This document shows positions 15,722-54,033 of a DNA stretch of 64,000 bases, in pieces. The notes beneath the pieces were generated by a model. The model was not told where the DNA came from. It searched no databases and was given only the letters and a program-made list of their open reading frames with translations. Position numbers and translations under genes: made by a program. The stretch comes from Microbacterium sp. SYP-A9085 (GTDB lineage: Bacteria; Actinomycetota; Actinomycetes; Actinomycetales; Microbacteriaceae). The stretch's first letter is position 1; every line of letters begins with the position of its first letter. The stretch lies in assembly GCF_009649635.1 (NCBI RefSeq), contig NZ_WJII01000002.1, positions 496,001 through 560,000 of the forward strand. Reading direction: 5' to 3'.

Positions 15722-15978
15722 CGCGAGGCATCCCCCAAATCCGCGAGGCATCCCCCAAATCCGCGAGGCATCCTCAAGTCCGCGAGGCATCCCTCAAGTC
15801 CGCGAGGCATCCCCCAAATCCGCGAGGCATCCCCCAACTCCGCGAGGCATCCCCCAAATTCGCGAGGCATCCCTGCGAAGTTCGGGGCTGCCTCGGCAAG
15901 TTCGGGGATGCCTCGCGAAGTTCGGGGCTGCCTCGCGCAGTTCGGGGCTGCCTCGCGAAGTTCGGGGCTGCCTCGCGG
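15722..15978. repeat. Inverted array of 20-bp repeats, locus 1 (3' of ogt)
   Basis: Eight head-to-tail units of the type CGCGAGGCATCCCCCAAATC start at 15722, 15742, 15762, 15781, 15801, 15821, 15841 and 15861. Five inverted units (TTCGGGGCTGCCTCGCGAAG type) follow, with TGCCTCG at 15889, 15909, 15929, 15949 and 15969. The two halves are complementary and can form a long hairpin. The array ends 17 bp from the ogt stop codon. There are no spacers, so it is not CRISPR. Related arrays are at 29711 and 53813. Confidence 0.9.
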
Positions 15979-15994
15979 GACGGGGGGCGAGGCG

Positions 15995-16489
15995 TCAGGC
16001 GGCGGACTCGCGGGTCAGCAGGCTCCGCTTGACGTCGACGCCCCAGGCGAAGCCGCCCATCGAGCCGTCGCCGCGCAGCACACGATGGCATGGCACGAAC
16101 AGCGCCGGCGCGTTCCGGGCGCAGATGGACGCGACCGCGCGCACGGCCGACGGCCGGCCGAGCGCCGCCGCGAACTCCGTGTACGACAGCGGCGCGCCGG
16201 GGGTGATGGCGCGCAGCGCGCGCCATCCGGTCTCCTGCATGGATGTCCCGAGCTGCCGCACCGCGACCGTGCCCACGGCCGCGACGTCGCCGCGGTAGTA
16301 CGCGTCCACGGCCTCCGCCGCCTCGGTCCGCCCGGCGACGACATCCGTCGGCCGCAGCCGCGGGTGGATCCGGGCGACGGCGACCTCAAGATCTCCGGTC
16401 CAGCCGGACGCCAGCACACTCCCACCCTCGTCGGCGACGATAGTGAACGGCCCGTCGGGGGTGTCGATGGTCTGCCATGTGCTGCTCAT
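15995..16489 (-). CDS. ogt: Methylated-DNA--protein-cysteine methyltransferase
   Basis: A 164-residue suicide repair protein that transfers the methyl group from O6-methylguanine to its own cysteine. The active site is LFVPCHRVL (about Cys134); the DNA-reading helix is SYTEFAAALGRPSAVRAVA (about 102-120) and the C-terminal GGFAWG is family-typical. The ATG at 16489 overlaps the stop of the upstream ada-alkA gene (ATGA), so the two are translationally coupled in an alkylation-repair operon. The 20-bp repeat array follows directly after the stop and may act as its 3' end. Confidence 0.95.
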   Translation of the reverse strand: MSSTWQTIDTPDGPFTIVADEGGSVLASGWTGDLEVAVARIHPRLRPTDVVAGRTEAAEAVDAYYRGDVAAVGTVAVRQLGTSMQETGWRALRAITPGAPLSYTEFAAALGRPSAVRAVASICARNAPALFVPCHRVLRGDGSMGGFAWGVDVKRSLLTRESAA

Positions 16490-52634: not shown

Positions 52635-53749
52635 TCCACGCCGTACGGCGCGACGACCACCTCGACGCGCTGGAATTCCTTCAGGTCGGAGTAGCCGGTG
52701 GTGGCCATCGACTTGCGAAGCGCGCCGATCAGGTTCGCGGTGCCGTCGGCGACCGGCGCCGGCCCGTAGAGGATCTCCTCGAGCGAGGCAACCTGGCCGA
52801 CGTGCACACGGCGGCCGCGCGGCAGCTGCGGGTGGTGCGCCTCCGGCCCCCAGTGGAAGCCGCGGCCGGGGGCGTCGGTCGCCCGGGCCAGGGCGACGCC
52901 GAGCATGACGGCATCCGCCCCCATCGCGAGGGCCTTCACGATGTCCCCGGACGTGCCCACCCCGCCGTCGGCGATCACGTGCACGTAGCGGCCGCCGGAC
53001 TCGTCCATGTAGTCGCGGCGCGCGCCGGCGACGTCGGCGACGGCGGTGGCCATCGGGGCGTGGATGCCGAGGGTCGCCCGGGTGGTGGATGCCGCTCCCC
53101 CGCCGAATCCGACGAGGACGCCGGCGGCGCCGGTTCTCATCAGGTGCAGCGCAGCCGTGTAGGTGGCGGCGCCGCCGACGATGACGGGGACGTCGAGGTC
53201 GTAGATGAACTTCTTCAGGTTCAGCGGCTCCGCCACCGACGAGACGTGCTCGGCGGACACCGTGGTGCCGCGGATCACGAAAAGGTCGACGCCGGCGGCG
53301 ACGACGGTCTCGTACAGCTCCTGGGTGCGCTGCGGCGTGAGCGATCCGGCGACGGTGACGCCGGCCTCGCGGATCTGGGCGAGGCGATCGCGCACGAGCT
53401 CGGGCTTGATCGGCTCGGTGTACAGCTCCTGCATGCGGCGGGTGGCGTCGCCCTCGTCGAGGGCCGCGATCTCGGCGAGGAGGGGGTCGGGGTCTTCGTA
53501 CCGCGTCCAGACGCCTTCGAGGTCGAGGACGCCGAGCCCGCCGAGCTTGCCGAGCATGATGGCGGTGGTGGGGCTGACGACGGAGTCCATCGGGGCGCCG
53601 ATCACCGGCACCGCGAACTGGTACGCGTCGATGGACCAGGCGGTGGAGACGTCCTCGGGGTTGCGTGTGCGCCGCGAGGGCACCACCGCGATGTCATCGA
53701 ACGTGTACGCGCGACGGGCGCGCTTCGCGCGGCCCAGCTCGATGTCCAT
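52631..53749 (-). CDS. GuaB3-family IMP dehydrogenase-related protein
   Basis: A 372-residue IMPDH-like barrel without CBS domains: FDDIAVVPSRRTRNPEDV, GAPMDSVVSP, GKLGGLGVLDLEG, and VIADGGVGTSGDIVKALAMGADAVMLG. The canonical catalytic loop GSICTTR of IMPDH is absent; the corresponding RGTTVSAEH segment has no cysteine. It is therefore a paralogue, probably not a standard IMP dehydrogenase. A GGAG ribosome site favours ATG 53749 over the GTGs at 53758/53755. It lies between the guaB repeat array and the SURF1-DUF3817-guaA run. Confidence 0.9.
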   Translation of the reverse strand: MDIELGRAKRARRAYTFDDIAVVPSRRTRNPEDVSTAWSIDAYQFAVPVIGAPMDSVVSPTTAIMLGKLGGLGVLDLEGVWTRYEDPDPLLAEIAALDEGDATRRMQELYTEPIKPELVRDRLAQIREAGVTVAGSLTPQRTQELYETVVAAGVDLFVIRGTTVSAEHVSSVAEPLNLKKFIYDLDVPVIVGGAATYTAALHLMRTGAAGVLVGFGGGAASTTRATLGIHAPMATAVADVAGARRDYMDESGGRYVHVIADGGVGTSGDIVKALAMGADAVMLGVALARATDAPGRGFHWGPEAHHPQLPRGRRVHVGQVASLEEILYGPAPVADGTANLIGALRKSMATTGYSDLKEFQRVEVVVAPYGVE

Positions 53750-53812
53750 GCTCACCACTCCACCCTACCCGCGCCCCCTTCCCGCGCTTCCCGCGCGTCC
53801 CGCGCTTCCCGC

Positions 53813-54033
53813 ACGAGGCATCCCCCAACTCCGCGAGACATCCCTTAGATCCGCGAGACAGCCCCCAAGTCCGCGAGACAGCCCCCAACTCCGCGAGGTA
53901 GCCCCGAATTCTGCGAGGGTCCCCTCTGCAAGTTAAGGGATGCCTCGGCAAGTTCGGGGATGCCTCGGCAAGTTCGGGGATGCCTCGGCAAGTTAAGGGA
54001 TGCCTCGCGGAGTTGGGGGATGCCTCGCGGAAA
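53813..54033. repeat. Inverted array of 20-bp repeats, locus 3 (3' of guaB)
   Basis: Six direct units (cores CGAGGCA/CGAGACA at 53813, 53832, 53852, 53872, 53892 and a decayed one at 53912), then five inverted units with TGCCTCG at 53941, 53961, 53981, 54001 and 54021. Same family as 15722 and 29711; the most diverged of the three. It occupies most of the 360-bp gap between guaB and guaB3; the rest (53750-53812, 54034-54109) is GC-rich with nothing recognised. Confidence 0.85.

Follow-up and report, generated by a model that had tools for sequence, protein, structure and literature searches.

Among described systems, the closest to the repeats reported here are the repetitive extragenic palindromic (REP) sequences and REPINs with their RAYT enzymes. 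In two papers (PMC3116915, PMC3733652), these are described as intergenic inverted pairs with species-specific words, which are enriched in convergent gaps and at gene ends and flank one associated gene. AbiEi proteins are a second point of comparison, being described in a further paper as binding inverted repeats at their own gene (PMC7319586). The DNA studied here is a 64,000-nucleotide stretch of Microbacterium sp. SYP-A9085 (NCBI RefSeq assembly GCF_009649635.1, contig NZ_WJII01000002.1, positions 496,001 to 560,000), below called the window, which contains three arrays of a 20-bp unit in inverted arms. These arrays share the listed REP/REPIN traits, and arrays of this kind flank one associated gene, here at 17 of 17 loci. 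The encoded protein is predicted from its structure model to have an AbiEi-like front and a Vsr/homing-endonuclease-like end. With a probability of roughly 0.6, we take the arrays to be the cis half of a two-part repeat-nuclease system and this protein, which would recognise the units and maintain them, to be its likely trans half, so that the system would work like REPIN-RAYT with an unrelated enzyme. The literature search gave no report of a link between such repeats and such a protein, most subscription journals being outside its coverage.

Arrays in the source genome and design of the unit

The first-pass annotation of the window had described three inverted arrays with 8+5, 2-3+4, and 6+5 units, and all three are present with these numbers, the last unit being degenerate in the left arms of arrays 2 and 3. 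Array 1 (15722-15977) is composed of 8 units of CGCGAGGCATCCCCCAAATC reading rightward (15722..15873, + strand), followed by 5 inverted units (15879..15977, - strand), whose outer end and the 3' end of ogt (Pfam DNA_binding_1) are 19 bp apart. Array 2 (29711-29846) begins 4 bp after the stop of a tetR gene with 2 units and a degenerate third (29711..29757, + strand) and continues with 4 inverted units (29769..29846, - strand) upstream of an ATP-dependent DNA ligase gene. Array 3 (53812-54029) has 5 units and a degenerate sixth (53812..53917, + strand) and then 5 inverted units (53933..54029, - strand), whose outer end is separated from the 3' end of guaB (Pfam IMPDH and CBS) by 82 bp; a second IMPDH-family gene starts 64 bp from the array. 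The period is 20 bp in each. At up to 3 mismatches, CGAGGCATCCCCCAA matches 32 times in the window, whereas 100 shuffled sequences averaged 2.8 matches and never exceeded 7.

The first-pass annotation had named two refuting outcomes, arrays confined to the window and arrays as frequent within genes as between them, and neither occurred. The source genome (G000; 2.92 Mb) holds 28 arrays with 215 units, all of them intergenic (0/28 inside a gene, as judged with a simple codon-bias gene caller that is crude and gives approximate starts), and their arms point inward. A two-unit pattern matches 155 times in the whole genome versus 0 times for the reversed control. For the single unit at 3 mismatches, the reversed-pattern control (34 versus 490 matches) underestimates chance, so only the 215 units lying in arrays were counted. 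The matches listed by a BLAST search with the array 1 junction comprise the same loci and a few isolated, weak, single ones. The two-arm arrays of this genome are cleanly head-in in 20 of 22 cases, the other two having one stray outward match, and two of the eight two-arm arrays in G069 are head-out.

Each unit consists of a core followed by a short spacer. We mapped the dispersal of the arrays in four genomes (G000, G082, G261, and G069). The core and the 20-bp spacing are conserved, whereas the spacer drifts. Adjacent units in G082 differ by 0-16% per position in the 14-bp core CGAGTGAGTATTCG and by 26-42% in the 6-bp spacer, and G069 shows a similar contrast. It is weaker in the source genome, with 0-14% in the first 11 positions, 12-27% in the last four of the 15-bp core, and 21-33% in the spacer. 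The spacing between units of the same direction is exactly 20 bp in 471 of 486 pairs across the three dialects mapped closely (159/164 in G000, 165/170 in G082, 31/33 in G261, and 116/119 in G069). The proposal that a unit spans about two helical turns, so that a protein could bind along one face, agrees with this exact spacing, which is what a protein reading one face of the DNA would be expected to impose. Adjacent spacers are more alike than random spacers, and unit number varies between sister species, so units do duplicate locally.

Different words across the genus

The word of the source genome is absent from the 365 other genomes of the genus. Its exact pattern has no match in GTDB genome contigs or viral contigs, blastn gave no match in plasmids or phages, and the arrays match no Rfam family at the gathering threshold. 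At the relatives' site downstream of guaB, other repeats are found. The word CGAATACTCACTCG has 330 occurrences in G082, 127 in G261, and none in the source genome, with 0 control matches, and the same word is carried by Microbacterium pullorum Sa4CUA7. G069 is filled with the word CGCGAGGTCGTACC (194 matches versus 10 in the control).

Because all three words begin with CGAG at the outer end, we looked across the genus for CGAG recurring four times in a row at 20-bp steps and found matches in 64 of 366 genomes, in about eleven dialects. G000, G069, G070, G079, G082, G087, G088, G134, G160, G188, and G259 have 20-105 such matches each, with 0-2 in the control, and G183 has 18 versus 7 in the reversed control. 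The reversed control is inflated for words starting with CGAGC, so the per-genome contrast is not clean there (e.g., G065, G245, G307, and G344). The words read off include CGAGRTTGTCC, CGAGRTGGTGGG, CGAGTTGTCC, CGAGGTCGCCGG, and CGAGRTGGCCAC, and G085, G245, and G307 have CGAC instead of CGAG.

Some gene boundaries, among them the guaB gap and pntB, carry arrays of different dialects in different genomes. We did not retain them as conserved positions, as a few chance overlaps are expected in permissive gaps. Two further repeats were left out as different: the CGCTCGGCGCGAGA array of G079, which is essentially one locus, and the 19-bp AGCGCACGCAGAACGGG repeat of G134. The latter runs mainly in one direction (G134:C1:217436-218154, 513226-513753, and 604047-604847), and one of its blocks lies near another homolog of the protein.

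A probable partner gene flanked by the arrays

In the source genome, the partner gene is found on contig C5 (C5:638958-639914), about 79 kb beyond the window, and a profile search indicates a single copy. The frame is 318 aa long (280 aa as called) and has an arm of the array word on either side, one of six units and one of ten. Pfam scans of the partner proteins gave no Y1_Tnp or other family. In the predicted model, the front part appears to resemble AbiEi and Rv2827c, and the C-terminal part is predicted to adopt a Vsr fold with conserved catalytic residues.

Homologs were searched in 34 chosen genomes, 17 with and 17 without array matches. Eight array genomes carry homologs with 51-60% identity, G070 has an interrupted copy with 56-59%, and G082, G139, and G259 have homologs with 40-42%, while none of the 17 array-free genomes has a homolog above 43%. 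The partner protein of M. pullorum Sa4CUA7 equals that of G139 over the compared portion. A profile built from 12 homologs and run against 366 genomes placed 15 at at least 437 bits and G339 at 389 bits, with the rest at 348 bits or below. All 16 of these genomes fall among the 64 array genomes (P = 1.4e-13); 12 of the 16 had built the profile, the clean figure being that for the four unseen ones (G245, G307, G339, and G344; P = 4e-4).

Runs at 20-bp steps flank all 17 partner loci, the interrupted copy of G070 included, and do so on both sides at 14 of them, compared with none of 31 further homologs. Among ordinary genes, 7 of 406 lie near such a run, all in the array-rich genomes G069 and G079. 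In the 11 genomes where other arrays could also be read, the word beside the partner is the same as the word elsewhere, or nearly so.

A sister species without the partner has about half the units at matching sites. At the 15 boundaries listed in both genomes, units are fewer without the partner at 13, more at one, and equal at one, so that unit number differs at 14 of 15, in line with the first-pass annotation's reading that the arrays expand and contract. For a spread of the repeats in trans by the enzyme, as in REP/RAYT systems, the lower unit numbers without the partner would be the comparative support.

A fixed locus with changing words

Of the 17 partners, 14 (clade I) are found beside tuf and/or rpsJ, with both genes visible in three cases; thus, the position of the gene is kept as the repeat word changes. 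Clade II comprises three partners with the word CGAGTGAGTATTCG at another common locus. The next-best homologs, 12 of 14 of which also sit at tuf/rpsJ, form a sister clade with 19-, 21-, or 22-bp units, and for this reason we dropped the idea of using the lower-scoring homologs as unrelated background. In a tree from which G070 was left out, as it was from the alignments, clade I (13 rows, support 100/98) and clade II (3 rows, 100/100) are separate from the sister clade, and two changes account for the 20-bp association. From the shared position and the tree, the gene looks inherited in place, and the unit length goes with the protein lineage.

A phased 18-22-bp repeat is present within 300 bp of 21 of the 31 further homologs, one of which (L394) was measured at a neighbouring gene, versus 51 of 475 control genes (P = 1.5e-12). 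A looser scan for 19-, 21-, or 22-bp units does not discriminate, since 199 of 452 control genes pass it, and for the sister clade we use the 18-22-bp figure. Upstream of four homologs (L339, L348, L361, and L365), open frames run across DNA that would resemble CTGTCCACAG or TATCCACAG, which we take to be reminiscent of a DnaA box.

Proposed mechanism and alternative explanations

In the two-part system that we propose, the N-terminal AbiEi-like part would bind successive cores, which their phasing places on one face of the DNA; this fits the binding of inverted repeats by AbiEi proteins at their own gene. The C-terminal Vsr-fold domain would nick or cut at or near bound arrays, and repair of these breaks would add units and copy arrays to new gene boundaries, whereby the dispersed arrays would follow the changing specificity of the protein. 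The host may tolerate the arrays, perhaps making use of them as barriers between genes, which is the least certain step. Two observations speak against the proposal: G018, G065, G223, and G261 have arrays without a detected partner, and G261 shows no significant loss of core quality (P = 0.10).

Should the gene have long occupied its locus, some process must re-seed or rewrite the dozens of dispersed sites that come to share each new word; that point mutations arose independently at all of them is not credible. We raise, as a rather speculative form of such a process, that the AbiEi/Vsr protein might rewrite its own sites: it would nick imperfect units, whose repair would go toward the preferred word, and would seed further units at gene boundaries. 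Were this true, dozens of arrays would change dialect together while the gene stays beside tuf and rpsJ, and the protein would drive concerted evolution in a sequence-directed manner, by a route other than transposition.

Alternatively, a host regulator or nucleoid-type protein could coat the arrays to separate genes, the Vsr-like domain being rarely used and the spread being slow and host-selected. We regard this as fairly unlikely. The exact 20-bp phasing and the conserved core would suit such a protein, and AbiEi proteins are described as autoregulating via inverted repeats (PMC7319586). The placement of the arrays also favours it. Of the 51 one-arm arrays with both neighbours called, 50 are untied, and in 42 of these the outer CGAG end is the one closer to a gene (P = 1.2e-6). 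Convergent gaps are enriched, with 11 of 27 arrays in G000, 23 of 46 in G082, and 15 of 23 in G261, versus 32 of 218 control gaps. The earlier description of arrays at the 3' side of a gene accordingly holds in that a 3' end is often involved, but not as a rule, since the outer end faces the nearer gene boundary. However, 302 of 366 genomes of the genus have no match to the CGAG-step pattern, which argues against a general need, and a regulator by itself leaves the new shared word at dozens of dispersed sites unexplained.

The arrays could also be the terminal inverted repeats of a gene-carrying transposon, with the dispersed inward arrays as internally deleted copies. The gene does sit between inward arms, and most dispersed copies resemble those arms without the gene. 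We nevertheless consider this improbable: the locus is conserved in 14 of 17 cases, the gene is single-copy by profile search, and the core is kept, although in dead copies it would decay at the same rate as the spacer.

A slightly poorer account still, and also improbable, is that the arrays are bidirectional transcription terminators and that an RNA hairpin is what is selected. Inward two-arm arrays, the use of convergent gaps, and the strong fold of array 1 as RNA (z = -10.9) would agree with it. Yet, of 100 arrays parsed in three genomes, 55 consist of a single arm (in the source genome, 6 of 28), a count slightly inflated by splitting at 75-bp gaps, with five inward one-arm pairs lying within 500 bp of each other. 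Opposite arms of one array match no better than arms from different arrays, and the spacers pair worse, so a continuous hairpin is not what is kept. The very long hairpin envisaged by the first-pass annotation is thus borne out for array 1 as a fold but not as the maintained feature. Divergent gaps hold 12 of the 96 arrays with both neighbours called, and at one locus of G082 and G261 (L127 and L133, an orthologous gap) a separate, short, terminator-like hairpin with a UUCG loop is found between the arms. The linkage to the gene is also left unexplained. Passive tandem repeats arising by replication slippage, with a coincidental gene linkage, would account for the unit numbers that vary between sister species and for the likeness of adjacent spacers, but under this idea core and spacer should drift alike and indels should be free, neither of which is observed. 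It accounts for neither the gene linkage nor the word that dozens of sites share, and it is already contradicted by the core/spacer contrast and that linkage, making it very improbable.

The two-part repeat-nuclease system, if confirmed, would be an independent, Vsr-fold solution to enzyme-tied repeats in a common environmental genus, and proteins annotated in databases as hypothetical or as solitary AbiEi antitoxins would gain a role. It would also offer a natural experiment in which a DNA-binding protein and hundreds of sites change specificity together, with about eleven dialects at one main locus to compare and many species that lack the system.

Paralogs and further features

The source genome has two paralogs of the partner with hairpins of their own. 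Paralog b (C5:624008) has a 19-bp 2+2 hairpin with the core CCGAACCCACC on each side. The window contains a hairpin of the same word (49589..49660; core CCGAACCCACC, 19-bp spacing, 2+2 units), the only further copy in 273 kb of own sequence searched, overlapping loci being counted twice. Paralog c lies in the window (2087..3046, + strand; 319 aa) and is 31% identical to the partner. It is preceded by three hairpin copies of the TCGCGCTACA...TGCAGCGC type (1635..1930), whose inner unit starts about 20-21 bp from the outer one, and followed by two copies of the same type (3105..3343), the ends being approximate on both sides. An 82-bp tandem at 1778-1930 corresponds to two of the left copies.

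In the G082 and G261 arrays (L153-L157 and L161-L200), the outermost CGAGTGA overlaps the called end of a gene by 7 bp at 27 ends, which indicates that the unit supplies the TGA stop codon of its neighbour. The window additionally contains a ZMP/ZTP riboswitch (Rfam RF01750, 53 bits; 65-147, - strand) and a 42-bp tandem repeat with 2.3 copies and 90% matches (42816-42910).

Comparison with known systems

The first-pass annotation had set the arrays apart from clustered regularly interspaced short palindromic repeats (CRISPR) and from ordinary terminators, and we agree on both counts. CRISPR repeats have long unique spacers and accompanying cas genes, whereas the period here is 20 bp, with spacers of 3-8 bp and inverted arms; no search was made for cas genes. 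Intrinsic terminators have a T run after the hairpin, and this is missing behind all three window arrays, although array 1 does have the hairpin; one-arm arrays are also common. DNA uptake sequences are single short sites that are spread widely and also occur inside genes, unlike the units described here, of which 215 lie in 28 arrays, all intergenic. Phage stoperators and the Sal-box arrays of rRNA genes consist of several short asymmetric protein-binding sites at gene ends. The arrays differ from these in that their orientation follows gene boundaries and not transcription alone, as far as the sequence indicates.

Compared with the AbiE type IV toxin-antitoxin system, the partner protein has a predicted extra Vsr-like domain and is associated with dozens of dispersed arrays instead of one promoter, and no AbiEii toxin was found between tuf/rpsJ and the gene at the three loci with both sides visible, where other small neighbours are unannotated. 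The partner was also compared with Vsr and the homing endonuclease I-Bth0305I (folds 1cw0, 1vsr, and 3r3p). Unlike these enzymes, the protein, a putative nuclease, is associated with repeat arrays and not with mismatch repair or an intron.

The partner proteins show no HUH/Y1 transposase, and no search was made for RAYT genes elsewhere in the genome. REP sequences are palindromes tagged GTAG or CGTC, whereas the units described here are tandem, keep an exact 20-bp phase, and start with CGAG or CGAC at the outer end, and the associated enzyme is predicted to have a Vsr fold instead of the HUH/Y1 fold of RAYT.
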